The translations under genes were made by a program, and so were the position numbers. Below are positions 3 through 19,647 of a DNA stretch of 64,000 nucleotides, in pieces; the stretch's first letter is position 1, and the number at the start of each line of letters is the position of its first letter. Location of the stretch: positions 46,937 through 110,936 of the forward strand of contig NZ_JAEULM010000036.1 of NCBI RefSeq assembly GCF_016793825.1. The letters run 5' to 3'. Under the pieces are notes generated by a model. It saw only the letters and a list, made by a program, of their open reading frames with translations. It made no database searches and was not told the origin of the DNA. This stretch comes from Sphingopyxis sp. (GTDB taxonomy: Bacteria > Pseudomonadota > Alphaproteobacteria > Sphingomonadales > Sphingomonadaceae).

Positions 3-272
3 ATCGACGCGACGATGCGCGACAAGGTCATTCCATTGCTTCAGGAATATTTCTTCGAGGATTGGGCGCGCGTCGCCGCTGTGCTGGGTGAACGCCCCGG
101 CCGGGGCGGCGCCTTTTTGGATTGCCGCAAGCTGCGCGACCCGACGGGCGGCGAAGGCGAGGAACGCGAAAGCTGGAGCGTCCGGCGCGATTTTGCGCCC
201 GATGCCTATGACCAATTGATCGGCAAGGTTCCACTTTCAGCCAATGCCGCCTCCGAAGAGATCTCCGAGTGA
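3..272 (+). CDS. mcrB: McrB-like AAA+ GTPase subunit of a type IV restriction system, C-terminal fragment
   Basis: The open frame enters from outside the window, so only the last 89 or so residues are visible. They carry the McrB tail pattern: a stretch reading IPLLQEYFFEDW, then VAAVLGE and FLDCRKL. In this family the subunit is the GTP-driven motor that moves DNA to the McrC nuclease after binding modified cytosines. No GTPase motif is visible because the AAA+ core lies upstream of the window. The stop codon overlaps the GTG start of the next gene (GTGA), as expected for translational coupling with mcrC. The assignment rests mostly on this tail plus the McrC neighbour. Confidence 0.75.
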   Translation: MDATMRDKVIPLLQEYFFEDWARVAAVLGERPGRGGAFLDCRKLRDPTGGEGEERESWSVRRDFAPDAYDQLIGKVPLSANAASEEISE

Positions 273-1546
273 CGCATCGCACGGTCCACGAGTGGGGCCG
301 TGTCGCAGTGGGAGGCGACGGGTTCACGCGCGGCCAGGCCGATGCCCTCCTTGCCGCGGCACGAGCACACCCCTTCGGCGGCACCGATGGCACCGACATA
401 TTGTGCGACCATCATCGCCACCTGCGAGCGCGCCAGATGGTCGGCGTCATCGCAGCGCGTGGGGCCAGTCTCGAAATCCTGCCCAAGGTCGATCCGGCCA
501 CTCCTGACGATGTGCCATCGACCGTCCGCGGCCGGTTGATGCATATGCTCAATGTCGCGCTTGGGCTGGATATTTCGACAGGTGAGGCGGCGGCGATGTC
601 TCACCGCGCCGATAGCCTACTCGACCTCTTCATCACCTTGTTTGCCGATCGGCTGCTTGCCGAGGTGCGGCACGGGTTGCCAAGGCAATATCAGAGCTTC
701 GACGAAGATCTACGCGCACTGCGGGGGCGCTTGGACCCGGTACGACAGTTTACCGTCCACGCGGTTCGCCCCGATCGGCTCGCTTGCCGGTTCGACGCGT
801 TATCGGTCGACATACCGCTAATGCAGATCATGAAGGCATGCGTACTATTCGTATCGCGGCACACGCGATCGATGGCTACTCAGCGCAAGCTCGCCGAACT
901 TCGCTTCTTGCTCGACGAGGTGCGAACAGTCAGGCCGGGCGCGCTGCCATGGAAGCAGGTTCGCATCGACCGTTCGAGCCGGCGGTGGAACGCCTTGCTG
1001 GAACTCGCCCGGTTACTCCTTGGTCAGCGTTGGCAGGAGACCCATGCCGCGAGCCACGAACCTGAAGGCATTTCGCTGCTCTTTCCGATGAACGAACTGT
1101 TCGAGGCTTATGTGGCGGCCCAGCTCCGCCGGGCTCTCGCCGATAGCGGGCTGGATGTCGTGACGCAGGGCGGCCTCCGTTACTGCCTTGGTCCGTGGCG
1201 AGAAGGCGAGGATACGGTCGGGACCAGTTTTTCAACCCGGCCCGATATATTGGTACGACGCGGCAGCGAGGTTGAAATTATCCTCGATACCAAGTGGAAG
1301 AATCTGACCAACGGCGTCAGCCAGGCCGATGTCTATCAGATGATGGCCTATGCCCGGATCTATCGTTCTCCGCGTCTTGTTCTCCTCTACCCCGCAGTGC
1401 CGGGAGCGAATGGTCGAAAAGTTGAGATGCATGGTCTCGCAGATGGTCGCGAACGGTTGGAGATCGCGACCGTGGCGATCGAAGCCAGCGAGGCTGAATT
1501 GCGCGAGGAGCTGAGGCGCCTTGTAATTGCCCGCACGCCCGCCTGA
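269..1546 (+). CDS. mcrC: McrC, nuclease subunit of McrBC modified-cytosine restriction
   Basis: This 425-residue protein is the endonuclease partner of McrB and cuts DNA carrying modified cytosine. The N-terminal third has the McrC pattern of a beta-rich domain ending in ILPKVD. The C-terminal part has a PD-(D/E)XK core visible as RPDILVRR followed by ILDTKWK, at roughly residues 323-342. The start is GTG at 269, chosen because it overlaps the upstream stop by the GTGA arrangement and gives a full-length protein; no later start keeps the N-terminal domain. With the upstream fragment it forms a two-gene type IV restriction operon that opens the defence-rich island. Confidence 0.9.
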   Translation: MTHRTVHEWGRVAVGGDGFTRGQADALLAAARAHPFGGTDGTDILCDHHRHLRARQMVGVIAARGASLEILPKVDPATPDDVPSTVRGRLMHMLNVALGLDISTGEAAAMSHRADSLLDLFITLFADRLLAEVRHGLPRQYQSFDEDLRALRGRLDPVRQFTVHAVRPDRLACRFDALSVDIPLMQIMKACVLFVSRHTRSMATQRKLAELRFLLDEVRTVRPGALPWKQVRIDRSSRRWNALLELARLLLGQRWQETHAASHEPEGISLLFPMNELFEAYVAAQLRRALADSGLDVVTQGGLRYCLGPWREGEDTVGTSFSTRPDILVRRGSEVEIILDTKWKNLTNGVSQADVYQMMAYARIYRSPRLVLLYPAVPGANGRKVEMHGLADGRERLEIATVAIEASEAELREELRRLVIARTPA

Positions 1547-3320: not shown

Positions 3321-3327
3321 TCCACCC

Positions 3328-4038: not shown

Positions 4039-4073
4039 CGACAGAGCGACCTATAGCGCTCGCTGATGTAATC

Positions 4074-4823: not shown

Positions 4824-4825
4824 CA

Positions 4826-4954
4826 ATGCTCGGCCTTATTCTCATCTTGATCCTCGCCGCGATCGTCAGTGGCGGCGCACGGAACGTCCTCGGCGGCCTG
4901 GTTACTCTGATCGGCGGAGTGATCCTGCTATTGGCGAGCTGCGCGCTCGTCTAG
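4826..4954 (+). CDS. tiny membrane protein (42 aa)
   Basis: ATG 4826 to TAG 4952-4954 encodes 42 residues. There are two hydrophobic stretches (LGLILILILAAIV, then LGGLVTLIGGVILLLASCAL) around a short polar turn (SGGARN), so it would form a small hairpin in the membrane. The start lies 2 bases after the preceding stop, suggesting coupling. Function is unknown, and real expression is not proven, but the regular hydrophobic pattern and its position argue for a gene. Confidence 0.5.
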   Translation: MLGLILILILAAIVSGGARNVLGGLVTLIGGVILLLASCALV

Positions 4955-5067
4955 CCAAGGGCGCTTATGACGGCATTCCAATCCAACGATCAGGCTTCGA
5001 AGGATTCGAGCAAGGGGAACGGAAGAAAGGGACGGAGTAGTGCCGTCCCTTTCCCGCACGCTCTCGA

Positions 5068-5544: not shown

Positions 5545-5651
5545 GAAAATTCCTTTGGGGTGGGGGGAGCATCGCGCCTGATCCGCCCCGCGGATCAAGA
5601 AACCAATGATGCAGAAGGTCATTGCCGGTCAAATCCGAAGCAACGGCGCAC

Positions 5652-5680
5652 AGTATAGCCAAATTTACGTCGAATGTCAA
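5652..5680 (-). promoter_or_regulatory. sigma70-type promoter for the gene at 5068-5544
   Basis: Read on the minus strand there is a perfect TTGACA (5675-5680) and TATACT (5652-5657) separated by exactly 17 bases. The first transcribed base should lie near 5645, about 100 bases before the chosen start codon. Confidence 0.7.
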
Positions 5681-6347: not shown

Positions 6348-7019
6348 GTGAAGAAAGACATTTACCAGGAGTACCGGCCGTATAAGGGGCGGAAGCGGCA
6401 GGCCGAGCAATTCTATCTCGATCCCCACAAGCGGCCGCGTTCACGGGCTCGGATCTTGTCCGATCGGGATAACGACCGGGTGGAAACGCATATCCTGAGC
6501 CGCGGCGGAGCGCCGACAGCCTATCTGCTGAAGCATCGCCTCGCTCGCTATGCCGGCCTGCGCGTTAGTGAAATCCTCAACACCCATCTGTCCGATCTCG
6601 TCGAACCCGATGGCCGGGTATCGGACTATGTGACGGTGCGGCCGAAGGTCGGCAAACGCGGCAAGGGTCGCAAGGTCCCGATGCATCCGAGGCTCGCAGA
6701 GGCCATCCGCAAATTCCAGCTGAACCATCCGGACATGACGTACGTCGCATTTTCCCAGCAACACTACACGCCCAAACGGCAGACACTGTCATCGCTCACC
6801 ACCTGGTTCCATCTGCTTTACAAGCAGGTCGGGCTGGTCGGCTGTTCCAGCCATTCCGGTCGCCGGACCTTCATTACCGAGCTGGCCAAGGCGGCACCGC
6901 GCGTTGGCCTTTCCCTGCGCGACGTTCAGCTGATCGCGGGTCACGCACGCCTCGAATCCACTGAGGCCTATATCGAACCGAGTGCGAATCTCGGAAAGCT
7001 GGTGAGGGCGATCAAATGA
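6348..7019 (+). CDS. short tyrosine recombinase (integrase), first gene of the helicase cassette
   Basis: This 223-residue protein contains the catalytic core of the tyrosine recombinases: R72 (YAGLRVSEIL), a basic beta-hairpin around 100-111, H169 and R172 (HSGRRTF), H199 (AGHARL) and the nucleophile Y208 (EAYIEPS). It has only about 40 residues before the core, so the usual N-terminal arm-binding and SAM-like domains are short or missing. The start is GTG 6348 with AAAGGAG at 6334-6340. Its stop overlaps the helicase ATG by 4 bases, which is unusual for an integrase meant to act alone and ties it to the cassette 6348-11950. All catalytic residues are present, so activity is plausible. Confidence 0.88.
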   Translation: MKKDIYQEYRPYKGRKRQAEQFYLDPHKRPRSRARILSDRDNDRVETHILSRGGAPTAYLLKHRLARYAGLRVSEILNTHLSDLVEPDGRVSDYVTVRPKVGKRGKGRKVPMHPRLAEAIRKFQLNHPDMTYVAFSQQHYTPKRQTLSSLTTWFHLLYKQVGLVGCSSHSGRRTFITELAKAAPRVGLSLRDVQLIAGHARLESTEAYIEPSANLGKLVRAIK

Positions 7020-9589
7020 GCGGCGCCCCCAGCATTCCGCAGCTGCAGGCCGGCCCGTCCTTCGATCCGGTCTCGACCATCCTTGGCACGCTTTCCCCGA
7101 CCGTCGTCGAGACGGTCGAAGTGGAAACGCGTCTGCCCCGCCTTGCCGATTTGCCCGAGGCCTATCGCAGCGGCGCAGCGGCCATCGCCATGGCCTCCGT
7201 CCATCCGCGCGGCGGCAAGCTGTGGCACCATCAGGCGCTCGCGCTCGAGCTCGTCGATGCCGGCGAGAATGTTCTCGTCACCACCGCCACCGGTTCGGGG
7301 AAGTCGCTCGTCTTTCACTATCCCGTGCTCCGGGAAATGGTCGAAGGCGATGGGACCGCGATCATCCTCTATCCGCAGAAAGCGCTGGGCAGCGACCAAC
7401 TGGGCCGCTGGCGGCAGGAGCTTGCTGCCATGGACCTCGATCCGGCGCTCGTCGCCGAGATCAATGGTCAGGTGCCGATGTGCGAGCGCGGCGAGATTTT
7501 GAAGACGGCACGCATTCTGCTGATGACGCCGGATGTGGTCCACGCCTGGTTCCTCCGCCTCCGGGCGACCAGGGAAGTGCAGGACTGTCTGAAGCGCCTT
7601 CGCTTCCTTGTGATCGACGAGGCCCATCTGCTCGACGGTGTGTTCGGGAGCAATTGCGCCTATTTCTTCAGGCGGCTTCGGTTTGCCGCCATGCACGCAA
7701 AGGGAAATGGCGGCGGCACGCTGCAACTCATCGCGGCATCCGCGACCATCGGCGATCCGGTAGGGCATGTCGAAGCCCTGACCGGCTGCGGCTTCGCACA
7801 TGTTTCCGAAGACGATAATGGCGCGCCGACACAGCCGATGACCTTGATGCACATCGAAGGTGCAGATCGGGGCCGGGCCGCCGAAGATGGACTCGCAACC
7901 GCCATCGGTGAACTCATCCCCGAAATGGCGGGCGAGTCGCTGCTCGCCTTTGCCGACTCCAGGCAGGGCGTCGAGCGCATCAGCAAATTGACCGACGATG
8001 ATCGGGTACTCCCCTATCGCAACGGTTATGAGCGCGCCGATCTCGCGGCAATCGAAAGCGGTCTGAAGAACGGAAGTCTGGTAGCGGCAGCCTGTACGTC
8101 CGCCTTCGAAGTCGGCATCGACATCAATCGCTTCCGGATCGGCCTGAATCTGGGTGTCCCGCCCACGCGCCGGTCCCTGCGCCAGCGTGCGGGACGGATT
8201 GGACGTTCGAAGCCTGGCCTGTTCGCGGTAATCGCACCGCGCGCAGCGTTCACGAAGCTTGGCACCACCTTCGCGGAGGCGGTGACGGGATCCGTCGAAC
8301 CCAACCATCTGCATCTCGGCAATCGGATCATCCAGTATCAGCAGGCCTGCTGCCTTCGCGCTGAGCTGGACGATGATGAAGCCTTGATCGAGGAAGCGCT
8401 GCACCTTCTCGATTGGCCTGAGGGTTTTGCCGAAGCCGTTGGCTGGGCCGCACCCTCGGCTTTCCGTCCCCACGAAATTGAAGACGTCGCTCGGCTCAGG
8501 GGCGAATGCGCCCATTTCGACTTTCCGCTGCGCCAGATCGCCAACATCAGCTTCAAGCTGCGCATGGCGGATGACCCTAGTGTGACCCTCGGCGATATCT
8601 CGATCGAAAAGGCGATGCGCGAGGCCTATCCGGGAGCGACCTACCTTCATCTGCGTAGGTCCTACCGCGTGGTAGGCTGGCGCCGCTCGCCCTTCGAGCA
8701 TTCGATCCTGCTCAAGCCGGAAAAGGGCCGGATCACCACCACGCCGCTGATGATGTCCACCGTTTCCGCTTCGCTGAATGCGGAGCATATCTTCGATCAG
8801 CACAATCTGACAAGCGACCAGGGCGTTTTCGCCGAATGCCGGCTCAAGGTCTCGGAAGCCGTCTTCGGCTATGCCTACGGCGGAAAGAAGATGCTTTATT
8901 CCGAGCTGGCGCAGAAGAATGCCCATATGCGGCAGCAGCGCCGCGATTTCGAAACTACCGGGGTGCTGATCCGGATCGACGAACCGTGGTTCCGCGGTGC
9001 GGCACCGCGCGAAGTCAAGATCCGCAAGAGGGTCGCTGAAGCACTCAAAGCCATCCTGCTCAGCGACCAAGGCATCCCGGCGGGCGAGATCGATTATGCA
9101 CACGCCGGAATAAATGTCGTCGACTATGTTGGTCCCCAGAAACTCGACAGCGCCATTGTGATCTTCGACGATGTGCCGGGCGGCCTTAGGCTCACCCAGC
9201 CCCTGTTCGAAGATTTCGAAGCCATTCTCGACCGGCTCGATCGCGGTGCAGGTATGGCGGGCGAGGACAGCTTGCTCGAGCCGCCGATCATCGAAAGGCT
9301 GCGCGAGTGGTATGGCAGCCTGACGCCCTCCTTGGCGCCGGTGACGGGATCCAACACCGATCGCCTTTTTGCGCCCGGCAGCATCGTCGGGGTCTCGATC
9401 CACGGCGAACTACGGATGCGCAAGCTCCTCGGGCACCAGTTCGTCAATCTCGATGGCACCGACCGCCTGATGTATAATTATGAGGTCGAGGGCGGCACGG
9501 CCCTGGTTAGCGCTACGGCAATCCGCCCGGTCGGTAGCGATTGGCGATTCCTGCCTGACGCTGCCGCACCGCAGGGAGGGCTGCAATGA
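7016..9589 (+). CDS. DEAH-box superfamily 2 helicase, YprA/MrfA-like
   Basis: This 857-residue protein has an SF2 helicase core: ATGSGKS (91-97), DEAH (201-204), SAT in AASATIGDP (about 241) and RQRAGRIGRS (about 388-397). The C-terminal half resembles the DUF1998/MZB region of MrfA/YprA helicases, visible as IVIFDDVPGGLRL followed by an acidic helix. The four-cysteine zinc cluster that normally follows in that family is absent: this end reads LLEPPIIERLREW with no Cys. The start ATG overlaps the recombinase stop (ATGA), and the stop overlaps the next gene by 4 bases. ATP-driven DNA remodelling is likely; its use with recombinases is inferred only from the gene order. Confidence 0.85.
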   Translation: MSGAPSIPQLQAGPSFDPVSTILGTLSPTVVETVEVETRLPRLADLPEAYRSGAAAIAMASVHPRGGKLWHHQALALELVDAGENVLVTTATGSGKSLVFHYPVLREMVEGDGTAIILYPQKALGSDQLGRWRQELAAMDLDPALVAEINGQVPMCERGEILKTARILLMTPDVVHAWFLRLRATREVQDCLKRLRFLVIDEAHLLDGVFGSNCAYFFRRLRFAAMHAKGNGGGTLQLIAASATIGDPVGHVEALTGCGFAHVSEDDNGAPTQPMTLMHIEGADRGRAAEDGLATAIGELIPEMAGESLLAFADSRQGVERISKLTDDDRVLPYRNGYERADLAAIESGLKNGSLVAAACTSAFEVGIDINRFRIGLNLGVPPTRRSLRQRAGRIGRSKPGLFAVIAPRAAFTKLGTTFAEAVTGSVEPNHLHLGNRIIQYQQACCLRAELDDDEALIEEALHLLDWPEGFAEAVGWAAPSAFRPHEIEDVARLRGECAHFDFPLRQIANISFKLRMADDPSVTLGDISIEKAMREAYPGATYLHLRRSYRVVGWRRSPFEHSILLKPEKGRITTTPLMMSTVSASLNAEHIFDQHNLTSDQGVFAECRLKVSEAVFGYAYGGKKMLYSELAQKNAHMRQQRRDFETTGVLIRIDEPWFRGAAPREVKIRKRVAEALKAILLSDQGIPAGEIDYAHAGINVVDYVGPQKLDSAIVIFDDVPGGLRLTQPLFEDFEAILDRLDRGAGMAGEDSLLEPPIIERLREWYGSLTPSLAPVTGSNTDRLFAPGSIVGVSIHGELRMRKLLGHQFVNLDGTDRLMYNYEVEGGTALVSATAIRPVGSDWRFLPDAAAPQGGLQ

Positions 9590-10620
9590 ACGGGCCGCCT
9601 CTCTTTGACTTTCGCGACCATTTGCGAAATCGACCTTTCTTCTCTCAGGAAGTAACGGAACAGACCATTTTTGGCGCCGCCGTGTCCGCGCAGGGATTGG
9701 TTCTGTGTGCGCTCCATCCCGGTGAGTTTTCACCGACTCTGGTCGAACGCTATGCGACTATCGTCGTGGGCCCGGTCGAAAAGGATTGGCCGGCGATTGC
9801 GACCGAAATGGAGCGACTGGCGAAGGGGGTGGTTCCCGGTTCCGTTCGCATCTTCCTGCGCGTCGATAAAGACGTTGAGTGGAATCCGCGAGCCAATGCT
9901 CTCGTGACAAAGCTGGAGAGTGTGTTTCCCGGCGCCATCACCAAGTTGCCGTCGCAGCAAGTGGCAGCCTGGTTTAGCGTCGGACAGCGCGAGATCCGGT
10001 CCCCCAACCTCCCGGAAAAGGAGCGTTGGTGTTTCCCCCTGATCGATAGCGCCGTCGAGACGGCACTGTACGCGGAGCTCGAACGCCGTTGTCACCCGAA
10101 AAGTTCGGCCTCCGCACAGCCGGCCGACAAAGCCTTGGAGGATAGGACCAAACGGTCCAGCCTGTCCGTGGCTGCGGCTGCATATTCGAAGCCCTATCTA
10201 TCCATTGTCGCCCTAAAAGAGGAGGCCGACGGGCAAATCATTCTCGACAATGATCGTTGTGCGACCTTCGTCTACGAGGCGCGAGACGCGGCGGCGGGAG
10301 CGGAACTGTCGGCGAAGTTGCGGAACTGCCTGTCGGAGTTCGGGATCGAGAAGATCTATTTTCGTAGCGCGGCCGATCGCGGTTACTTCGCGGGACACGC
10401 GCTCTGCTACAAGTCCGAGGCCATCCTGCAGATGGTCCCCGGCCTGGAAGTCGAATCCGTGACGTCGCAGTCGATCGCGATCTGGCTGAGCCGCGATTGG
10501 CCGACCATTCCGGCACCGCAGAGCGGCTTCGACGTAAGGTGGCGTAACGCGCAGCAGCGTGCCATCGAGCTTGGCACTTTCGTTCTGTCCCCCCAGTTTG
10601 CACAGGGGCGGAGCGCGTGA
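9586..10620 (+). CDS. unknown protein built from two similar halves, helicase partner
   Basis: This 344-residue soluble protein belongs to no family I recognise. Its two halves look related. A segment ending KLESVFPGAITKLPSQQVAA then WFS (about residues 105-132) is echoed by KSEAILQMVPGLEVESVTSQ then SIAIWLS (about 275-302). Both come after a beta strand with a basic tail (SVRIFLRVDKD, and IEKIYFRSAADRG). A polar linker with KSSASAQPADKALEDRTKRS separates the halves. It overlaps the helicase by 4 bases upstream and the next small gene by 4 bases downstream, so it is an obligate member of the cassette. There are no nuclease, ATPase or membrane signatures. Confidence 0.6.
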   Translation: MNGPPLFDFRDHLRNRPFFSQEVTEQTIFGAAVSAQGLVLCALHPGEFSPTLVERYATIVVGPVEKDWPAIATEMERLAKGVVPGSVRIFLRVDKDVEWNPRANALVTKLESVFPGAITKLPSQQVAAWFSVGQREIRSPNLPEKERWCFPLIDSAVETALYAELERRCHPKSSASAQPADKALEDRTKRSSLSVAAAAYSKPYLSIVALKEEADGQIILDNDRCATFVYEARDAAAGAELSAKLRNCLSEFGIEKIYFRSAADRGYFAGHALCYKSEAILQMVPGLEVESVTSQSIAIWLSRDWPTIPAPQSGFDVRWRNAQQRAIELGTFVLSPQFAQGRSA

Positions 10621-10826
10621 TGTTCGAGCGCAAGGCACGGAATTATCCGCGAACGTCCGATATTCGGCGGCTCGTCCAGGCCACCCGCGAAAGCGGCGTG
10701 CTTGTTCGCGCCGTCGAAATCCGGGCCGACGGCACGATCCGCCTCATGCCCAATGCCGAACTTCGTTCCGCCGACGAAGAGGCCAAAGATGAATTCGACG
10801 CCTGGGAAAAGGCGGGACGTCTTTGA
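10617..10826 (+). CDS. small basic protein paired with an integrase, possible recombination accessory factor
   Basis: This 69-residue protein starts with GTG at 10617, overlapping the previous stop (GTGA). The pattern is RLVQATRESGV, then VRAVEIRADGTIRLMPNAE, then an acidic end with DEFDAWEKAGRL. Small proteins of this type commonly sit directly upstream of phage-type integrases in alphaproteobacteria. Their role is not established; an excisionase-like or DNA-binding role is an inference. Its stop overlaps a TTG in frame with the following integrase. Confidence 0.55.
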   Translation: MMFERKARNYPRTSDIRRLVQATRESGVLVRAVEIRADGTIRLMPNAELRSADEEAKDEFDAWEKAGRL

Positions 10827-10840
10827 TCCAGGGAGTTCAC

Positions 10841-11950
10841 ATGGTCAGGGCGGAGCGAAACGGAAAGCTGCCCGTCTGGTATATCTACGCATGGCGCGGC
10901 GGCCCCAGAATCGGCCGAGTTGAGTCGCGAACGCAGCCGCTGCTCACGCATCAGCAACTTGCTGCTCTCAAGGAGCATCTAGATCAACGCAATGCCGTGG
11001 ACCCGACGACGCTGCGATCGCTGATCCGCGAATGGCGCTCGCAAAATCCAGACCGCCCTTCCAGCCCCGAATGGGAGGCGCTGGCTGATGGTACCAAAAA
11101 GACGTGGGGACACGCGCTCGATCTCATCGAGGAAAAATGGGGTGAGGTTCCGCTCTCCCTTTGGTCCGATCCGCGGATGACGGCCAAGGTCGTCGCTTGG
11201 CGGGATAGCCGCGCCGACACGCCGCGCGGCGCCGACATCGGTGTCGGTACGCTTCGCGCCCTCCTCGAATTTGGGCGCCTACGCGGCCGCGTCACCTTCA
11301 ATGCCGCTGCGAACATTCCGACCCTGTATCGAAACGGACAGCGTGCCGCGATTATCTGGACAGACGAGGATATGGAGCGCTTTGCCGAGACCGCGAAACG
11401 GCTGGAGCGGCCGCATGTGATCGATGGCATGCGGTTGGCCGCGCTGACGGGACTGCGCCGCGCGGATCTCGTCACTCTCGAGTGGAGCCATGTCGGCGAC
11501 ACCGCCATTCGCAAGCTCGCGCTCAAATCCAGTCGCCGAAAGCGGCAATATGTCACCGTCCCGATCATAGCAGATCTCCGCACGCTCCTCGACGAGCTAC
11601 GCGATCGGCCGCGAAAAGACGGCGTCACCACCGTGCTGGTGAATAGTCATGGGGCGCCGTGGAGTGGGGATGGCTTTGGCGGCACTTTCAATCGGGTGCG
11701 GGATGAAGCCGATATCGTTCATATCGATGAGGACTCGAAGGAGCGGAAGCGCAAGCATCTCCACGATATTCGGGGAACCTTCTGCACGAAACTCCTCACC
11801 GTAGCCGCCCTATCCGATGAGGAGGCCGCCGGCATTATGGGCTGGTCTGTCGCGCAGGTGGCATCGATCCGGCGTATCTATGTGGATCAGAGCTCGCTGA
11901 TATCCTCAATAGCGGAGCGGATGGCAAATACGTCCAAGCGCGCACAATAG
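10841..11950 (+). CDS. phage-type tyrosine recombinase, last gene of the helicase cassette
   Basis: This protein is 369 residues from ATG 10841, which has GGGAG about 6 bases upstream; a TTG at 10823 would add 6 residues and overlap the previous stop. The catalytic set is R206 (LTGLRRADLV), H308 and R311 (HDIRGTF) and Y347 (RRIYVD). The second histidine position is W335 (MGWSVAQ), a substitution known in this subgroup of phage integrases. An N-terminal arm-binding and core-binding region occupies about residues 1-165. It closes the five-gene run 6348-11950, so the cassette is bracketed by two different tyrosine recombinases. The attachment site could not be identified. Confidence 0.87.
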   Translation: MVRAERNGKLPVWYIYAWRGGPRIGRVESRTQPLLTHQQLAALKEHLDQRNAVDPTTLRSLIREWRSQNPDRPSSPEWEALADGTKKTWGHALDLIEEKWGEVPLSLWSDPRMTAKVVAWRDSRADTPRGADIGVGTLRALLEFGRLRGRVTFNAAANIPTLYRNGQRAAIIWTDEDMERFAETAKRLERPHVIDGMRLAALTGLRRADLVTLEWSHVGDTAIRKLALKSSRRKRQYVTVPIIADLRTLLDELRDRPRKDGVTTVLVNSHGAPWSGDGFGGTFNRVRDEADIVHIDEDSKERKRKHLHDIRGTFCTKLLTVAALSDEEAAGIMGWSVAQVASIRRIYVDQSSLISSIAERMANTSKRAQ

Positions 11951-12083
11951 GCAGCTCTGCGCCTGATCTAAGCCGTTACTGAGGCTGAGGCCGATTCCCG
12001 AAAGCTGACTTCAGCGTCGTCCCATGACCGAGCGGCAAGCCAAGCCATATTGGCATTCCCCATGCCGTATCTATATTTAGCTG

Positions 12084-12896
12084 ATGGGCGAATCTAAACA
12101 GAAGAGCCGGAGACGCGACCAGATACTCGCCGGCGAATTGCGATGTATATATTGCATGAATCCTCCATCCACAGTCGAACATATGCCTCCCAAGGCTATT
12201 TTCCCGAGAAAGCACAGATTGAGCGGCATGGAATACGCTTCGTGCGAGCCGTGCAACCATAACAGTCGAGCTGCCGATACTGCAGCAGCGATCATGGCAC
12301 GAATCTCACCAACAAATTTCATCGACGCGTTAGAACTGCAGGAGGCTCGCCGCCTGCTGGCAACCATGACTTCGATTGCTCCGCAATTCGTCCGCGAACT
12401 GATGGACCCGAGCAAAGTCAGCCCAGTTTGGGAAAAGGGCCGCGATGCCGTTTTTGGACCGAAGCGACGTATCGAGCTTGATGGACCCGTTTCCCACGCG
12501 CTCCTGACGGCTTTCGCCGCCAAGATCGGCATGGCGCTATACCGGGAGCACATTGGTCAGCCACTACCCAAAGCTGGGGTCGTGTTCACACAGCACTACC
12601 TGAATTCCGGCCTCGTTAGAGGCGAGGCAAAAGCCCTTGTCTCGATGATGCCGGATTCTGGGGAATTGAAGCAGGGTCGAAAGAGTTCGGGCCGACTATT
12701 CAATTACCGGTTCAACACCGACGAACGAACGATCGTAGCGGCACTGGTGGCCTTCAACGACAATTTCTTTGTTCGAGTGTTTGCAACCCACGACGAGAGA
12801 CTGAAATCGACCCTTGGCGATTTTCACGAGCGCCTGCCTGTTCCAGTAGGAGGGCTGCCTGCGCTAGCTAGCATTTGGAATCCCCGGCGAGAATAG
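12084..12896 (+). CDS. HNH-like endonuclease
   Basis: This 270-residue protein has an N-terminal zinc-finger/HNH-type motif: C21 and C24 (CIYC), H33 (VEHMPPKAIF), then C54 and C57 with N58-H59 (CEPCNHNSR). The remaining 200 residues are a mixed domain I do not recognise, ending ASIWNPRRE. HNH proteins of this layout are found in defence islands and phages as DNA nucleases; the target here is unknown. The ATG is preceded by an AT-rich TATATTTAGCTG and no clear ribosome site, so the message may be leaderless. It converges with the SIR2 gene (70 bases apart). Confidence 0.7.
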   Translation: MGESKQKSRRRDQILAGELRCIYCMNPPSTVEHMPPKAIFPRKHRLSGMEYASCEPCNHNSRAADTAAAIMARISPTNFIDALELQEARRLLATMTSIAPQFVRELMDPSKVSPVWEKGRDAVFGPKRRIELDGPVSHALLTAFAAKIGMALYREHIGQPLPKAGVVFTQHYLNSGLVRGEAKALVSMMPDSGELKQGRKSSGRLFNYRFNTDERTIVAALVAFNDNFFVRVFATHDERLKSTLGDFHERLPVPVGGLPALASIWNPRRE

Positions 12897-12965
12897 TGCG
12901 CTCATAATTTTTTCCGTGTCGTTGGACGGCAGTGGCCTTCGCGCTCATGCTTCCTCCGTCGCGGG

Positions 12966-15044
12966 TTAGCGCATTACTTCCCGCAGGCGATCGAGGCGTG
13001 CCTGCGCATCGGCTGCGGCATTGCTGTCTGCATCTGCTTCATAAGCGGCGACGACGCGCTCCATTGCCCGGACGGCTTCGCGGATCGGCGTTTCCTTGAG
13101 GGGGCCTTTGCGCTTGAGCTTGGCCAATATCTCATAGTCCGATGCAAGGTTTTTCAACATGCCCGCGAAGTTAGCGTTGGGCTGATTGTGCCACGCATGC
13201 TCTACGAGGCTGGTGTGAATGTCGATCGCGTCGGTAATGTCCCCGCGCATGCGGCGCCTAGCCAGTCGTCCGGCATCGGGATCTGTGGTGAGCGTGTCAT
13301 CAGTATGTGTCGCGAGCGCCTGCGCAAGTCCGTCCCGGGCTTCGACGTATTTTTCTCCGAGTGCACCCGGCTGCTTCAACGCCGCCTGATAAGCCTTGAT
13401 CACGCCGCGATCGGCGGTACCCGGTTTGGTGAGGGCCCATAACTCCTGCTTCGCCCGGGCCTCATAGAAATTGAGCAGTGCCTTGCCCGATTGAGAGGAT
13501 TGGGGAATACGCGGCCGCGCCGCGCCGATCACCGCGATGATTTCCTTGAGTCCCTCGATTGTTTCATCGGACGACTGGGCCATGATTTCGAGCCGGTCAA
13601 ACAAGGCTTCGATCAAGAATTCGGCGTAGCGGACACGATGCTCCACCCTACCGTGCCTGTGGAGATGTTCAAATTCCTTGATCGCTTGATCGATAAGTGA
13701 AGTATTGTCGGCAGGATTCTCGTCGAAAGTGTCCTGAAGACTTTGGGCATATAGAAATCGCGCGCGTAGATCGGTTTCCTTGGTCGGCGCCAGCAACTCG
13801 GCCGCCTTCTTGAAATCGCCTACGCTTCGCGCCTGCAGGGCGGCGGCGATAGCAAGGCCTTTATTGTGGCGATTCTTTCCCGCGTGATCGATCCTCTCTC
13901 GATAGTCGTTGATCAATTCGTCGATTTCGTGATCGCCCCGAAGGGGAAGCCGGTCGCGCTGCTCGACGAGGGCCGCAATCGGATCGGCGACCCACGCAGG
14001 CTGGCCTTCGCCGAGTTCGCGCATCAGGCCTTGGAAGAACTTGTCGGCGTCCTGATCGGGAACGAAGAATTTATTCTCGCCGGTCTGGAGTAATGCCTGC
14101 GCACGCGGGGAAAACTCACGATAGCTCTTCTCATAGGCCACCCAATAGACGACCATGCGTGGGATCGTCCGTGCGGCGTATTGAAGGAGGTTCATGACTC
14201 CTTCCTCGCCGCCCGCATAGCCGACGACGACGAGCACGGTCGCGTGCTTGAGGAGGCTCATCATTACGGTTTGCAAGTTGCGGTCGTCGCCGGTCTCGGT
14301 CAGCGCCGTCGGACTGTTCCGCAAATCGTAGGTATGCATTGAGCCGTGTAGATGGACGACCTGCGGCCAAGCTGGGGTAGGGGAGATACGAGTCAGCGAC
14401 TCGAGGCCATCTGCGACAACGGGAGTAATTCCGGTCCGAACAATCCCCTCGAGCGCTAACTGATCGAAATTAGTTGTCAGTACGGTGTGTACATAGCGTT
14501 GCTGGACGAGGGTGCCGAGACACGCATGCGCCCAGTTCATCCCGTGCTCGCGCTCTTCGATGATCCGCGATATGATTTCGCGCTGTTGGTTCGGGCTTTT
14601 GAGATGTTCCGCAAATAAATAGGTGTACAGCGCCGCCCAGTCACCTTGGCCGCTGGCAAGCTCGAAGCGGGAAGGGATGATCCCGCGCCCGATCAGAAAT
14701 TTTAGCGCCTTGCCAGAATCGCTGAATTCGCTCGCGGGAGCCTGTCCCACCGAATATCGCCGGGCGAGGACGCAAATGCATCGCTCGGCAACGCTCGATG
14801 CTAAGGGAATCTTCGCGCTTGCCGAACAGCCGGCGCCGAGCAGAAATATCGCACGACCCCGCCGGCCGGAAAGCTCGCCTACGTCGAGAAGCGGCCTCTC
14901 TTCCCTGGAGGTCTTGGGCGGCTCTATATCGCGTGCGAGGCGCAAGTCACGCGCGAGTTGCTTAACGGTGCGAGCCTTCAGTCCGGGGCGATTATCATCG
15001 CTGGTGCCGACACTATCCCAATCCATATCAAAAACCGCCCCCAT
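12966..15044 (-). CDS. SIR2-domain protein with repeat-like C-terminal half, probable anti-phage NADase
   Basis: This 692-residue protein has an N-terminal SIR2-like domain (about 60-350): GAGCSASAKIP (70-80) for NAD binding, TTNFDQL with N192 and D194, and HLHG with H233 as the catalytic His. The rest (about 370-692) is alpha-helical with Ala-rich pairs of helices of the TPR type (for example AAALQARSVGDFKKAAELL). SIR2-TPR proteins are known in anti-phage systems that deplete NAD+ after sensing phage; that function is inferred here. The start is ATG 15044, with a second ATG at 15026 as an alternative. It is transcribed alone, away from the RiPP cluster, through an AT-rich gap. Confidence 0.8.
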   Translation of the reverse strand: MGAVFDMDWDSVGTSDDNRPGLKARTVKQLARDLRLARDIEPPKTSREERPLLDVGELSGRRGRAIFLLGAGCSASAKIPLASSVAERCICVLARRYSVGQAPASEFSDSGKALKFLIGRGIIPSRFELASGQGDWAALYTYLFAEHLKSPNQQREIISRIIEEREHGMNWAHACLGTLVQQRYVHTVLTTNFDQLALEGIVRTGITPVVADGLESLTRISPTPAWPQVVHLHGSMHTYDLRNSPTALTETGDDRNLQTVMMSLLKHATVLVVVGYAGGEEGVMNLLQYAARTIPRMVVYWVAYEKSYREFSPRAQALLQTGENKFFVPDQDADKFFQGLMRELGEGQPAWVADPIAALVEQRDRLPLRGDHEIDELINDYRERIDHAGKNRHNKGLAIAAALQARSVGDFKKAAELLAPTKETDLRARFLYAQSLQDTFDENPADNTSLIDQAIKEFEHLHRHGRVEHRVRYAEFLIEALFDRLEIMAQSSDETIEGLKEIIAVIGAARPRIPQSSQSGKALLNFYEARAKQELWALTKPGTADRGVIKAYQAALKQPGALGEKYVEARDGLAQALATHTDDTLTTDPDAGRLARRRMRGDITDAIDIHTSLVEHAWHNQPNANFAGMLKNLASDYEILAKLKRKGPLKETPIREAVRAMERVVAAYEADADSNAAADAQARLDRLREVMR

Positions 15045-15329
15045 ATTCGACGCGTTGATGCGTTCTTCATATGCTGAAATTCGCTAGCAATTTGACGTAT
15101 TTCATCAGGGCGTGTCAATCTGTGCGGTGTGATGCCTGCATTTAAAGATAAATCTTATTTTATATATTAGATAGTTTTTTATTTACTCATAGATACGAGG
15201 TGAATCGGCATATTGATTTCAAATTATTTTTAATATATGCATGATATTCGCGCTAAATATATATTTCTCGATTTTTCGTGCGCCCGCTAATTTTCATGAT
15301 ATGCTACCGGGCAGCTTAGGAGATTCGTC
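15045..15329. other. AT-rich divergent intergenic region before the RiPP cluster
   Basis: About 285 bases separate the SIR2 gene from the precursor gene. Bases 15131-15290 are strongly AT-rich compared with both neighbours (long runs of A/T such as TTTTTTATTTAC). A TATGCT box at 15300-15305 could be a -10 element for the precursor, but I found no convincing -35. Such AT-rich gaps are typical of recently acquired DNA and of nucleoid-silenced promoters; no gene is seen here. Confidence 0.5.
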
Positions 15330-15482
15330 ATGCAAGTTCGCACCAATGCTAATCGTCCACTCGACGTTCGAGGCGAGGCCCTCGGAAGCGCCGTGCTGGC
15401 GCGGCTGATCGAAGAAGTCCGAAACGAGGAGAAGGGCGTCGCCCGTAGCTACGACCGGACGCACAACCGGCACAATCGCTGA
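15330..15482 (+). CDS. RiPP precursor peptide with three aromatic-x-Arg triads (cyclophane/triceptide type)
   Basis: ATG 15330 to TGA 15480-15482 gives 50 residues, with AGGAGA at 15318-15323 as ribosome site. Residues 1-39 form a polar leader with a helical segment (GSAVLARLIEEVRNEEKG). The last ten residues are Y41-D-R43, T44, H45-N-R47, H48-N-R50: three triads of the form aromatic-(Asp/Asn)-Arg in a row. Radical SAM triceptide synthases join an aromatic or His ring to the beta carbon of the third residue of such triads, so three crosslinks at Y41-R43, H45-R47 and H48-R50 are predicted. The radical SAM gene starts 13 bases later. This resembles what I recall as the YhhA-type precursors, though I cannot confirm the match. 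Confidence 0.8.
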   Translation: MQVRTNANRPLDVRGEALGSAVLARLIEEVRNEEKGVARSYDRTHNRHNR

Positions 15483-15495
15483 CAAGCGTTTTTCG

Positions 15496-16620
15496 ATGAC
15501 GGTAATCGATACCGTTCTGTTGAAGGTGGCAAGCAGGTGCAATCTTAATTGCACCTATTGCTACGTATTCAATATGGGCGACACTGGCTGGGAGCGGCAG
15601 CCCAAGCGCCTAGGCGACGCGGTAGCCGCGCGAATCGTCGAGCAGCTTGGCGACCTGTATCGGTATCAAGGGCGGCCCTTCAGCATCGTCTTGCACGGCG
15701 GCGAGCCCCTCATGCTCGGTCGCGATCGGCTTGAGGCTCTTTTCTCGGCCCTACATGAAGAAATACCGGCGTGTGGCCTGCACCTGCAGACTAATGGGAC
15801 GCTGCTCGACGACAGGATTCTCGACCTGTGCGCGCGTTTTGGGGTCGGAATCTCGATCAGTCTCGACGGCCCTGAAGCGGTGACCGATCGCTTCCGCATC
15901 GATCACAAGGGAAAGGGGTCTTTCCAGCGCGTTCACAAAGCGGTTGAGCATATCCGGCGACATCCGAAGGCGAGTCAGCTCTTCTCCGGCATGCTGGCGG
16001 TCGTCGATCCCGAAACGAACGCGCGCGAAATCTATGATTTCTTCAAGGGTACGGGCACGCCGAGCGTCGATTTCCTTTACCGCGACGGTAATCACGACCA
16101 GTTGCCCTTCGGCAAAGCCTCTTTCGAATCCACCGAATATGGCCGATGGATGTGCGACTTGATCGACGCTTATCTCACCGACCCGACGCCGCCCCGGATC
16201 CGAGTCGTCGACGACATGATCAAGCTCCTACTCGGCGGCGCGGCGCGGAAAGAAGGCGTAGGCCTGTCGGATTATGGCATCATGGTGATCGACACCGACG
16301 GCACGATTTCAAAGAATGATACGCTCAAGAGTACGACGAATGCGGGCGACGTCTTCTCGGAAAACTGGTCGGTCGTGCGCGACCGGCTGGTCGATGTTGT
16401 GCGGTCGAGGGAGTTCCGCGACTATCATGAAAGCCAGCGCCCGATATCTTCGGTCTGTAGGACATGCGCTGATCTTGCGGTCTGCGGTGGAGGCATGCCG
16501 ACGCATCGCTTCAGCGCCAAGCGCGGCCTCGACAATCCGTCAGTCTTTTGTTCTGATCAAAAAATGGTCGTCGCACGCCTTCGCCAATGGTTGAAGCCTC
16601 ACGAGGGGAAGGCGGCATGA
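15496..16620 (+). CDS. radical SAM/SPASM peptide maturase (cyclophane-forming)
   Basis: This 374-residue enzyme is predicted to install carbon-carbon crosslinks in the precursor. The SAM cluster motif is C15-x3-C19-x2-C22 (CNLNCTYC), followed by GGEP at 67-70. The C-terminal SPASM region has C320, C323, C329 and C351 (SVCRTC, then AVCGGGMPTHR, then FCSD), ready to bind auxiliary iron-sulfur clusters. The layout is close to the FxsB/XyeB/GrrM-type triceptide synthases. There is no separate RiPP-recognition gene nearby. The stop overlaps the next ATG by 4 bases, so the cluster is one transcript. No peptidase or exporter follows. Confidence 0.88.
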   Translation: MTVIDTVLLKVASRCNLNCTYCYVFNMGDTGWERQPKRLGDAVAARIVEQLGDLYRYQGRPFSIVLHGGEPLMLGRDRLEALFSALHEEIPACGLHLQTNGTLLDDRILDLCARFGVGISISLDGPEAVTDRFRIDHKGKGSFQRVHKAVEHIRRHPKASQLFSGMLAVVDPETNAREIYDFFKGTGTPSVDFLYRDGNHDQLPFGKASFESTEYGRWMCDLIDAYLTDPTPPRIRVVDDMIKLLLGGAARKEGVGLSDYGIMVIDTDGTISKNDTLKSTTNAGDVFSENWSVVRDRLVDVVRSREFRDYHESQRPISSVCRTCADLAVCGGGMPTHRFSAKRGLDNPSVFCSDQKMVVARLRQWLKPHEGKAA

Positions 16621-17198
16621 TTAGCCTCTCAGCCCCGGATTTCGTCGAAAGCGCGCCCTTTCGGCATTGCGGATGGGATGGGTTCTTTCCTGCCGCCGAA
16701 GCTGATGCGGTGCTAGACTGGCTGGAAGCCGACGCGCCATGGCGCCTCCGGATCGAGAGCTTCTACGAGCAGCATGAGTTCAGCTTGCTCAATGCGCCGC
16801 CGCCGGCCGAGTTGGAAACGCTCGTGTCGAGGGATACGGTATCGCAACTCGCGGGTCACCTCGAACAGTTGTTCGAACTTGATCGCTGTCTCGTCTTGGT
16901 AGACGTGTCGGCGCACCGGCTGACCGCTGGCCAGACTATCCGCGTACACAATGATTATCTGGGCCCGGAGGAAACGCATCGGCTGCTCATCCAGTTCAAT
17001 CGCGGCTGGTCGATCGACAATGGGGGCCTGCTGATGCTGTTTGGGAGCGACGCGGCAGACGATGTTCGCAGTGCGCTGCTGCCAATGCACGGTAGTGCAT
17101 TCGCCTTTGAAATCTCATCGCAATCATTTCACGCAGTCTCGACGATCAAAAGCGGCGAGCGCTACACACTCGTGTACACGTTTCGAACCCATGACTGA
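16617..17198 (+). CDS. 2OG-Fe(II) oxygenase acting on the RiPP
   Basis: This 193-residue protein carries the iron triad H111-x-D113 (VHND) and H172 (SFHAV), with R182 (GERYTLVYTF) as the 2-oxoglutarate salt-bridge residue. The fold matches small prolyl-hydroxylase-like enzymes found beside cyclophane RiPP maturases. The start is ATG 16617, not the longer reading from 16587, because it overlaps the maturase stop (ATGA) and has a GAGGGGAAGG ribosome site. It probably hydroxylates the crosslinked peptide. The stop lies inside the next gene (8-base overlap). Confidence 0.82.
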   Translation: MISLSAPDFVESAPFRHCGWDGFFPAAEADAVLDWLEADAPWRLRIESFYEQHEFSLLNAPPPAELETLVSRDTVSQLAGHLEQLFELDRCLVLVDVSAHRLTAGQTIRVHNDYLGPEETHRLLIQFNRGWSIDNGGLLMLFGSDAADDVRSALLPMHGSAFAFEISSQSFHAVSTIKSGERYTLVYTFRTHD

Positions 17199-17922
17199 CC
17201 TCGCAGTGATTGCGGCGCCTTGGGCGCTGCACGTCCAAGGAGAGGCCGCTGAGGCGCGCAAGCTGGATCGCCTCGAAACGATGCCCGATAATGTGCCGAC
17301 CGAGGCCGCGCGCATTTTTCGGCAGTTGAACCTTGAGCTGACTCCCCGCACCGCGGCCGATAATGTGGCACTCGCGAGGGCTGGATCGCTCATTTCCCGG
17401 ATTCCCGATTTGTGGAACGTCGTGGCCATGCGCGTCAATCGCGTGGCGATCCTGCACTGCGCGGACCAATGTTATGATGTCAGCCATAGCGATCCGGCTT
17501 GGCCGGGCCTCATCTGCGTGTCGATGCCGCCTTCGACACCAGTGGGGGACCTTCGGCTAGCGGAAGGCATCATTCATGAGGCGATGCATCACCATCTCTC
17601 GGCGGTCGAGGCGACAACTAGCCTCGTTGCGTCAAACCGGGCGGCCTATTCGCCTTGGAAGATGAGCGAGCGACCGGCGAGCGGTGTGCTTCACGGCACG
17701 TATGTTTTTGGCTGCATAGCCCATGCACTTGGACGGTTGATCAATGAGGGCCTCCTCGATGCGTCCCAGTCGCTTCACGCGAAAAACCGGATTTCTGAAA
17801 TAGGAAAAGAGTTAGAATTCATCGACCATGAAATCCTTCTTGCCGCCTTGACCGAGAAGGGTCGGCATGTCCATGCGCTGGCGATCGGCGCGGTACGATC
17901 GGTAAGATTTGAGAGCAAATGA
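17191..17922 (+). CDS. HExxH-motif peptide-modifying protein
   Basis: This 243-residue protein has HEAMH at 129-133 inside the helix AEGIIHEAMHHHLS, then a conserved-looking YSPWKMSERPASGVLHG. HExxH proteins in FxsB-type RiPP loci were first taken for proteases and are now described as 2-oxoglutarate-dependent peptide beta-hydroxylases; this assignment follows from context and motif. The start is ATG 17191, which overlaps the oxygenase gene by 8 bases. It is the last intact gene of the cluster, so the pathway would combine crosslinking with two hydroxylation steps. A metalloprotease role that removes the leader cannot be excluded. Confidence 0.75.
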   Translation: MTDLAVIAAPWALHVQGEAAEARKLDRLETMPDNVPTEAARIFRQLNLELTPRTAADNVALARAGSLISRIPDLWNVVAMRVNRVAILHCADQCYDVSHSDPAWPGLICVSMPPSTPVGDLRLAEGIIHEAMHHHLSAVEATTSLVASNRAAYSPWKMSERPASGVLHGTYVFGCIAHALGRLINEGLLDASQSLHAKNRISEIGKELEFIDHEILLAALTEKGRHVHALAIGAVRSVRFESK

Positions 17923-18018
17923 ACGACGCCGGACGCCCCCGATTTTCCAACCGGTCGTGGTTGGGCTGAACGCGCAGGGATTGATTGGAAACGAATTTTG
18001 TTCTCACCCTTCCCGGCG

Positions 18019-18748
18019 ATGTTTGAGGAACTGACGGCGGCGGATCTCGAGCGCCTTCGCGGAACGACCGAAGGATGGTATGTTGAGTATAAGCGGGAGA
18101 TTCCCCAAGCTTCTTCCATAGCCAAGTCAATCTCGGCGCTCGCCAATACCTATGGGGGCTGGCTTTTTCTCGGTATCGAAGAACTTGCGAAGGACAATGC
18201 CGTAGCTGGGGCATTTCCGGGCGTTCCCTGCGCGAACGCCGATGCCGCCCTGCAGCGCATCAGGCAGGCGGTTGCGGATCATATGAATCCTGCCGCATCA
18301 TTTCGATGCGCGCGCGATCGAAGGCGCCGACGGCGCGAGCTTCGGATCTGATCGCGTCGTAATCGCAATACGCGTGCCTCAGAGCCTCTCGGCCCCGCAT
18401 GTACATCGCTCGGGGCAAATCTACAGGCGCGTCGCCGACGGCTCCGAGCCGCGACCGGAGAACGACCGCTATCTCCTCGATCAACTTTTCCGTCGTGGAG
18501 ACGAGCTACGGCGCGAATTCGCCGAGTGGGTCGACCGCGATCCAGAATTCTCCAAGAGCGAAGAAAACATCCCCTTTCTCAGGTTGATGATGATCTGCGA
18601 TCCATGGCGTGAGGAAACGGCCATCAGCGGCTCACATTGCTTGGCCTCAACCCCATTGACCAGCGCTACAGATCGCGGCAAAGGCAGTGCCTTCGATTGC
18701 TCCTGTAAAAAACATTGTAAAAAATGGACCAAAAGAACAGCTAAGTGA
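18019..18748 (+). pseudogene. AlbA_2 (Schlafen-type) domain protein, frameshifted and truncated
   Basis: Frame 1 from ATG 18019 reads an AlbA_2 domain (EGWYVEYKREIPQASSIAKS, then NTYGGWLFLGIEE). It falls into noise near 18297 and stops at 18351. The continuation (FDARAIEGADG, VVIAIRVPQSLSAPHVHR, GQIYRRVADGSEPRPENDRY) is in the next frame, so a single shift lies close to 18297-18300. After about 18610 the family pattern ends in unrelated sequence that runs to 18748, just before tRNA-Gly. AlbA_2 proteins bind DNA or nucleic acids; this copy is broken. A programmed frameshift is unlikely because no slippery heptamer is seen. Confidence 0.75.
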
Positions 18749-18755
18749 TTGAAAT

Positions 18756-18829
18756 GCGGGTGTAGCTCAATGGTAGAGCAGAAGCTTCCCAAGCTTACGA
18801 CGAGGGTTCGATTCCCTTCACCCGCTCCA
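18756..18829 (+). tRNA. tRNA-Gly (anticodon CCC)
   Basis: A 74-base tRNA with encoded CCA. The acceptor stem GCGGGTG pairs with CACCCGC, the D arm is GCTC/GAGC, the anticodon loop is TTCCCAA giving CCC, and the T arm has GGTTCGATTCC. Position 27-43 appears to be a G-A mismatch. It marks the border between the accessory island (left) and the core block (right); the orientation is opposite to the usual 3'-end integration side. Confidence 0.92.
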
Positions 18830-18846
18830 GCGTTACGACAAGTGCC

Positions 18847-19647
18847 TCAGGCTTGCCGAACCGGTATGTCCCCTGCGCGCTTCACCTGCACGTCCTGGCT
18901 GACGAATTCTATCTCGCGGTAGGCGGTGAGGAAGGCGATGTCGGCGGCGTCGCGGCCGACGCAGATTCGGGCGGCCTCGGTCGGGCACGTCATTCCCGTC
19001 GCATCGACCATGTGCCAGTCGCCGTCCAGATAGATTTCGGCGACGGCGTGAAAATCCTGGGGATCGACGCCGAGCGCATACACGCTCGCCATGCGCGCGG
19101 GGATATGCGCGGCGCGGGCGAGCGCGATCATCACATGCGCATAGTCGCGGCACACCCCTCGCCGCTCGACGAAGCTGTCGAGCGCGCCAGTCTCTGAATT
19201 GCTGGATCCCGAGGCATAGGTGAACCGGCTCTCGATCCAGTCGCGCATCCGGGCGATCTTCGCGCCGCCTTCATGCTCGCCGAAACGACGCTCGACGAAC
19301 GCATGGAACTTGTTCGACGGACAGTATCGCGATTCATTGAGATAGGGGACGACCGCGGCGGGCAATCGGTGGAGCGGCACGGCGTCGAGACCACGGACGT
19401 CGATCCGCGGGCGGTCAATGTCCACCAGCGCGCGATATGCGGCGCGCAGTTCGCCTGCGCTGCGCAGCCACACCGGCTCGCAAATGCCGTCGCTCGCGGG
19501 GATGCGCGCCAGATATTCGGGCCGGCCGAGGTCGAGCGCGGCCCGCAGAATGCGCTGGCCGTGCCCGTCGGCCGCCTCGATCTGCAGCATCACATCGACG
19601 GGTTCGGGCAGGCGATAATTAAGGGAAGCGGAAATTTCGAGTTTCAT
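18847..19647 (-). CDS. transglutaminase-like cysteine protease family protein
   Basis: This 266-residue protein has the papain-like transglutaminase core: C166 in RRGVCRDYAHV, H200 in DFHAVAEIYLDG and D215 in VDATG. An N-terminal beta domain (about 1-130) precedes it. There is no signal peptide, so it is likely cytoplasmic. Relatives in proteobacteria cleave or crosslink peptides or cofactor precursors; the substrate here is unknown. It is divergent from the MFS gene at 19708 and is the first core gene right of the island. Confidence 0.85.
   Translation of the reverse strand: MKLEISASLNYRLPEPVDVMLQIEAADGHGQRILRAALDLGRPEYLARIPASDGICEPVWLRSAGELRAAYRALVDIDRPRIDVRGLDAVPLHRLPAAVVPYLNESRYCPSNKFHAFVERRFGEHEGGAKIARMRDWIESRFTYASGSSNSETGALDSFVERRGVCRDYAHVMIALARAAHIPARMASVYALGVDPQDFHAVAEIYLDGDWHMVDATGMTCPTEAARICVGRDAADIAFLTAYREIEFVSQDVQVKRAGDIPVRQA

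Follow-up and report, generated by a model that had tools for sequence, protein, structure and literature searches.

A Yhh triceptide cluster of Sphingopyxis and its recurrent linkage to Septu, SIR2 and other partner genes

The Yhh cluster of the window and its relatives

What purpose a Yhh triceptide serves is the question raised by a compact gene cluster at positions 15330 to 17922 of a 64,000-nt stretch of Sphingopyxis sp. DNA (contig NZ_JAEULM010000036.1), the whole of which is termed the window; loci and genomes are denoted by L- and G-numbers, with G000 being the genome of the window. In the sections of a review available (PMC11002830), the chemistry of Yhh is described while its purpose is not. 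Yhh was found to be recurrently and closely linked to a few partner families, and the sequences suggest a role for the peptide together with them: yhhA, yhhB and yhhC, with an accompanying HExxH gene, most likely supply the peptide of an anti-invader system that is built from modules and has exchangeable effectors.

The four open reading frames (ORFs) lie on the forward strand, exactly where they had been placed by a first-pass annotation made from the sequence alone. The first, yhhA (15330..15482, preceded by a ribosome-binding-site-like AGGAG, read from the sequence at 15318..15322, + strand, seven nt 5' of its ATG), encodes a 50-aa precursor with the C-terminus SYDRTHNRHNR and the core YDR-T-HNR-HNR (NF041705, 63 bits against a cut-off of 36). 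It is followed by yhhB (15496..16620) for a radical S-adenosylmethionine (SAM) cyclophane synthase of 374 aa (NF041707, 490.8 bits, cut-off 445), yhhC (16617..17198) for a 2-oxoglutarate (2OG)-Fe(II) oxygenase of 193 aa (NF041706, 243.4 bits, cut-off 150) and a gene given here our own label 'yhhD' (17191..17922) for a HExxH alpha-ketoglutarate (alphaKG) oxygenase of 243 aa (TIGR04267, 71.1 bits, cut-off 40). YhhA, YhhB and YhhC each exceeded the NCBIfam equivalog cut-off, with match strengths far beyond chance in the profile search, and the earlier assignment to the Yhh family (YhhA/B/C) is correct according to these curated profiles. YhhB did not reach the cut-off of the FxsB family (TIGR04269, 305.9 bits against 370). 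The genes had been described as all overlapping, which holds for yhhB and yhhC (4 nt shared) and for yhhC and the HExxH gene (8 nt shared), whereas yhhA and yhhB lie 13 nt apart.

YhhB had likewise been credited with all expected cysteines. C15, C19 and C22 and the auxiliary C321, C324, C330 and C352 are present, whereas the upstream half of the textbook SPASM motif is missing. The first six of these cysteines are kept in 59/59 aligned rows and C352 in 57/59, while H111, D113, H172 and R182 of YhhC are invariant across 55 rows and H129, E130, H133 and H168 of the HExxH protein across 52. The best solved relative of YhhB in the PDB was ChlB (9gm3, 208.9 bits), and an AlphaFold model of the HExxH protein (pLDDT 87.1; alignment A3, using 41 of the 51 listed relatives) matched ChlH (8s5f; E 7.6e-10, TMq 0.67, 23% identity). 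The ChlH-like predicted fold backs the hydroxylating type proposed earlier for this enzyme, which, with its score above the TIGR04267 cut-off and its intact HExxH motif, falls among the alphaKG-HExxH peptide beta-hydroxylases. In ChlB/ChlH, the best solved relatives of the two proteins, the radical SAM and alphaKG-HExxH parts are fused, whereas Yhh has separate genes and identity is low. From the profile matches, the conserved catalytic residues and the ChlH-like fold, the cluster looks intact, and positions 15330-17922 are identified as a Yhh triceptide cluster that also includes a fourth gene, for a ChlH-like HExxH oxygenase.

A single scan of a genome collection (84,980 species) with a two-row YhhB alignment confirmed 365 relatives, and the 80 best were carried forward. 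The census consists of 62 loci, namely the 59 close ones of these 80 together with L007, L008 and L010, and the remaining 21 of the 80, related non-Yhh radical SAM loci not matched to the Yhh loci in taxa, served as controls. A YhhA-type precursor was found in 62/62 Yhh loci (69 copies) and in 0/21 controls. All 69 copies match the core [YF][DN]R-x-[HYF][NH][RK]-HNR, in which the terminal HNR and the R at position 3 are invariant and Y occupies position 1 in 67/69, with the N-terminal parts of the copies being variable. Conservation of the triads in homologous loci, on which the first-pass annotation had made its reading depend, was therefore observed, with at least one triad-bearing precursor in each of the 62 loci; the profile favours copies like its seeds, and triad-less copies might escape it. 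The yhhC gene was found in 57/62 loci and the HExxH gene in 55/62 (as a single ORF with yhhC in L057 and fused to yhhB in L007). Four of the seven loci without the latter end at a contig edge and three are from Neisseria.

Yhh is rare in unselected genome samples, all of which include the genome of the window: YhhA scored above its cut-off in 3/298 genomes of the family, and YhhC was found in 3/385 genomes of the class and 1/398 of the phylum. A phage or prophage origin found no support: 50,697 phage records gave no match at E 1e-20, and among 30 pattern matches in viral contigs a single relative was found, of weak similarity (29% identity over residues 7-108).

Partner genes beside Yhh

Clustering of 792 neighbouring ORFs by BLAST gave an ATPase family present in 34/62 loci and an HNH family present in 32/62, the next largest family being found in 7. 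Profile search identified PtuB in 33/62 loci, and PADLOC, whose names are annotations, assigned tested members of the two families to the Septu pair (PtuA 479 bits in L008 and 416 in L062; PtuB 268 bits in L008 and 256 in L050), with the Yhh-linked PtuA also matching PDB entries 8ee4 and 9vh1. As in Septu, 32/32 kept rows have the Walker A/B residues in PtuA, and 32/32 have the EHxRPK motif in PtuB (four second Septu copies left out and, for PtuA, also L012 and L042). Forty-five loci are roomy, having at least 2.5 kb of downstream and at least 1 kb of upstream flank. Of these, 28 have PtuAB no more than 3 kb away (fragmented in L012; both L012 and L042 were scored from partial genes), 6 a HEAT protein, 3 a Sel1-DUF2971 protein and 2 a SIR2 protein, so that 39/45 have one of the four partner types. 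No match to the PtuA and PtuB profiles was found in the 21 non-Yhh radical SAM loci. The 34 Ptu loci of the full census span Nitrospirota, Pseudomonadota, Bacteroidota, Gemmatimonadota and Candidatus Binatota, several being contigs of metagenome-assembled genomes (MAGs). In the usual layout the HExxH gene and ptuB are convergent with their ends less than 90 nt apart; the exceptions are L012 and L019 (pair upstream on the same strand), L061 and L042 (downstream on the same strand) and L030 (1.1 kb off). The usual arrangement, with Yhh and PtuAB adjacent, was also met in G555, a genome of the unselected class sample.

Septu was not found in G000, in which PtuB model PDLC00339 matched nothing at E 0.001; in the window a SIR2 gene stands in its place (12966..15044, - strand, divergent from yhhA). 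It encodes 692 aa, with a C-terminal half predicted to be all-helical (SIR2_2, 39.2 bits; PADLOC Aga_SIR2, 91 bits). The gene is placed likewise beside Yhh in L015, L017 and L031, and the motifs GAGCS, TTNFD and HLHGS are kept in 4/4 sequences; a model predicted from these four sequences was poor (pLDDT 68.2). The first-pass annotation covered neither this gene, nor the defence island around it, nor the Septu link in relatives.

Two further observations concern the partners. At seven loci, six from methanotrophs and one from Nitrosomonas oligotropha, a gene for a HEAT-repeat protein is convergent with the HExxH gene (among them L018:12588-13961 and L022:5017-6510), and the protein of L022 matched the HEAT profile. 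In Hymenobacter (L035, L041, L057 and L066) a second, different PtuAB pair lies approximately 2 to 4 kb upstream of yhhA, adjoining a gene with a Tle1-like phospholipase domain (tested in L057), and its PtuB falls outside the Yhh-linked group.

That group was defined by a tree of 57 PtuB rows, in which all 33 Yhh-linked sequences and three unlinked ones form one group of 36 (support 92/95), the label changing 2 times as against a mean of 18.4 after shuffling (0/500 shuffles as low). Across 31 PtuAB loci (L014 was dropped, and L012 and L042 have no usable PtuB), YhhB distances correlated with those of YhhC (Spearman 0.764), PtuA (0.472) and, weakly, PtuB (0.205), from which the Yhh-PtuAB pair seems to have been partly co-inherited and partly exchanged. 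On a 'quick' YhhB tree with weak forks, at least 12 changes of partner label were counted with 'none' as a state, and 8 for PtuAB versus the rest (L068 and L070, with broken yhhB, were left out, four cut loci were uncounted, and L036, L045 and L056, whose flank is short on one side, were scored as 'none'). A swap was seen within Nitrosomonas, where loci with near-identical YhhB carry HEAT (L032) and PtuAB (L033, a MAG contig).

The explanation that best survives beside an anti-invader module is that Yhh is an independent peptide pathway riding mobile defence islands, with its SIR2 and PtuAB neighbours as bystanders, and this is considered unlikely, if far from negligible. The island of the window bears on both readings: its type I restriction-modification (RM) and McrBC genes are in keeping with an anti-invader function of Yhh, and the presence of such other defence genes is also what a passenger would show. 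Six plasmid records were examined out of the 21 in which a related radical SAM protein had been matched, and in some of the six Yhh lies beside other defence genes. A short Argonaute (pAgo) pair is immediately upstream of yhhA on the US6-1 plasmid, an ATPase with a PtuB of another model lies approximately 4 kb upstream on the R. etli plasmid, CBASS and a SIR2 family protein are near Yhh on the plasmid of Rhizobium sp. L51/94, and DUF2971 genes lie approximately 2.5 to 4 kb downstream of yhhC on a Vibrio plasmid. Besides the short pAgo and CBASS neighbours, the bystander explanation draws on the 6/45 roomy loci having none of the four partners and on the weak YhhB-PtuB correlation. Against it stand the recurrence, in several phyla, of one PtuAB group that abuts the HExxH gene, as set against the rarity of that PtuB group in the unselected samples (above 280 bits in 3/385 class and 1/398 phylum genomes), and the finding of PtuAB in 0/21 non-Yhh radical SAM loci.

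The reading of Yhh as a module working with its partners has several findings to contend with. The contrast between 28/45 and 0/21 (Fisher p ~4e-7) comes from loci that are not independent and controls that are not taxon-matched. Both roomy Neisseria loci are among the six without a partner, and a known nearby defence gene was found in only one of these six (AbiEii in L021). PtuAB and Yhh are mostly convergent and do not form a single operon, their distances agree poorly for PtuB, and the unlinked members of the PtuB group (G401, G491 and G716) indicate that it also lives with no Yhh nearby. The SIR2 partnership rests on four loci. Neither the HEAT protein, which had no PADLOC match, nor the Sel1 protein, with one weak match of 25.7 bits, is an established defence protein, and the start of the L022 HEAT protein looks by eye like a signal or membrane segment, a poor fit to an intracellular role. 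Among the plasmids, that of R. tumorigenes has a Fic gene near Yhh, and that of R. ruizarguesonis has only conjugation and unnamed genes around it, with no named defence gene.

Predicted peptide and its proposed role

The review (PMC11002830) gives C3(Tyr)-Cbeta(Arg) and C2(His)-Cbeta(Arg) as the bonds that YhhB forms. In the window YhhB would accordingly close three cyclophanes, one Tyr C3-Arg Cbeta and two His C2-Arg Cbeta, with a loss of approximately 6 Da. The one Tyr-Arg and two His-Arg crosslinks predicted by the first-pass annotation agree with this chemistry, its prediction of the product following from what is published on YhhB and its relatives. It had also regarded crosslinks from adjacent His triads as an unusual product. 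Such triads are the family norm, with H at position 5 in 49/69 copies and HNR at positions 8-10 in 69/69, and, the chemistry being already in print, the suggestion was dropped. In seven loci (L008, L016, L025, L027, L030, L039 and L067) two yhhA copies lie either side of yhhB; the second copy is YNRTYHRHNR in 7/7, as though such a locus gave a pair of related products.

YhhC and the HExxH enzyme would then hydroxylate the peptide, each adding 16 Da. As described in PMC12636437, ChlH hydroxylates a peptide that already carries a cyclophane, while PflC/PosC show that oxidative cutting of the backbone is also possible. The HExxH enzyme might, like these relatives, also cut the peptide backbone.

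The flanks showed no recurring family of dedicated exporters or proteases, as judged from BLAST-clustered ORFs of at least 80 aa and families in at least three loci (neighbours found at a single locus being mostly unannotated), and this bears out the earlier remark that export and leader removal are not encoded nearby. The exception is one 4-locus group that resembles ABC ATPases by eye. Because the product is near-constant and no such exporter or protease recurs, the mature peptide probably stays inside the cell. There it would set the state of an effector, either restraining it or permitting it to act, for as long as no infection disturbs that state; the effector would be the SIR2 protein in the window and the PtuA/PtuB nuclease pair in the 28 roomy relatives noted above. 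A comparable arrangement is found in Ec78, where a retron gates PtuAB, and the Yhh peptide may gate its partners by analogy. Three of the four partner types have helical repeats or an all-helical half (HEAT, Sel1 and the SIR2 protein), and these helical parts might read the peptide. It is tentatively proposed, as a possibility short of probable, that the near-invariant hydroxylated multi-cyclophane peptide is an immune switch for PtuAB, SIR2 NADase-type, HEAT or Sel1-DUF2971 effectors, with infection disturbing the peptide and so releasing the effector.

The same near-invariance of the core across phyla, together with the lack of a recurring dedicated exporter or protease, would also suit a cofactor-like or metal-binding intracellular peptide (compare PQQ and mycofactocin) serving some other enzyme, and the His-rich core could conceivably bind metal. 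This is regarded as improbable, as no recurrent candidate user enzyme was seen and the commonest neighbours are of nuclease/ATPase type. Some ribosomally synthesised and post-translationally modified peptides are antibiotics. A secreted, bacteriocin-like antimicrobial triceptide, for which darobactin as a radical SAM product offers a precedent (PMC9055067), is hardly credible here, with no recurring dedicated exporter, protease or immunity gene seen and a core that scarcely diversifies, its constancy across phyla being unlike that expected of a bacteriocin.

The island, variant loci and related systems

In the window, Yhh appears to be carried as cargo by an integrative defence island, a reading based on a tRNA-Gly repeat, the defence and recombinase genes between its copies and a lower G+C content. 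The right border is a tRNA-Gly (CCC) gene (18756..18829, + strand), the first 40 nt of which (18756-18795) recur with 39/40 identity at G000:C8:38437-38476, approximately 27.3 kb upstream on the same contig and outside the window. Between the two copies are type I restriction genes, McrBC, a helicase, two tyrosine recombinases, SIR2 and Yhh. The McrC-like gene lies at 269..1546 (+ strand; PF10117, 232.4 bits) and the recombinase genes at 10823..11950 (+ strand; Phage_integrase, 41.7 bits) and 6348..7019 (+ strand; Phage_integrase, 55.1 bits). The G+C content of positions 1-19000 is 0.53-0.65, mostly lower than the rest. The boundary repeat corresponds to the 5' half of the tRNA-Gly gene, which the element seems to bring with it, whereas tRNA-borne islands mostly bring the tRNA 3' end. 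Next to the end of the island a Schlafen AlbA_2-type gene seems to be split into 17998-18351 (by domain match) and 18374-18748 (by position only).

Several variant arrangements were noted among the relatives. A long YhhB of approximately 700 aa occurs at L007:4373-9275, L148:6791-11739, L149:6794-11747 and L165:8721-13752, with the HExxH domain shown in L007 and deduced from length in the others. GNAT and glycosyltransferase genes follow it (the glycosyltransferase of L007 recognised by eye), with an extra gene between in L007, L148 and L149, and its product may be further acylated or glycosylated. The fused variant of L007 (G157) adjoins genes at L007:9856-13991 that resemble an RNA repair operon, with RtcR identified by PADLOC and with putative RtcA and RtcB. 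On two Rhizobium plasmids, the His-Xaa-Ser radical SAM genes hxsC/A lie just downstream of Yhh (L164:16898-18618 and L165:14834-17960), with hxsB also present in L165. Bacteroidota loci L073, L074, L075, L078, L081, L084, L085 and L077 have two adjacent YhhB-like radical SAM paralogues, often with a third, and no YhhA-like precursor was found at these loci.

Compared with the YhhA/B/C triceptides as known (Sugiyama 2022, as presented in the available part of PMC11002830 and in NCBIfam), the same Tyr/His-x-Arg triads are present and all three profiles were passed. The differences lie in the additional HExxH gene, with the NCBIfam models examined naming A, B and C only, and in the partner genes, which the available part of the review does not mention. 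The closest parallel in print is the Fxs system (Kaur 2020, PMC7159879), for which the part available describes FxSxx-type peptides, a SPASM radical SAM protein and a zincin-like metallopeptidase linked to VMAP conflict systems. Fxs and Yhh thus share a small peptide, a SPASM radical SAM protein and a HExxH-type 'metallopeptidase' beside a conflict system, while the precursor motif of Fxs and its partners (VMAP and AP-ATPase) are different. A link between a peptide and a conflict system is therefore already published for Fxs, and what is new is the link of another precursor family, Yhh, to other partners; among the matches listed in a literature search outside which most subscription journals lay, no paper tying Yhh to Septu or SIR2 was found.

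On the side of the partners, the PtuA linked to Yhh matches the PADLOC PtuA of Septu, which includes the PtuAB effectors of retrons Ec78 and Ec83. The Yhh-linked pair differs in that its PtuB belongs to a single group and goes with a peptide cluster, being neither stand-alone nor retron-linked. The SIR2 protein of the window shares with SPARSA (8in8) a SIR2 domain and its motifs, whereas no Argonaute gene was found beside it (no Piwi domain among the Pfam-scanned genes of the island, a scan taking in all but small unnamed ORFs) and its C-terminal half is predicted to be helical throughout.

If Yhh does serve as the peptide module of an anti-invader system, a natural-product family would be tied to immunity, and the defence signal would be neither nucleotide, DNA nor RNA. 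The linkage points to a concrete and testable function for Yhh, that of a modified peptide working with phage-defence effectors, and studies of one group of Septu may have to take its peptide genes into account.

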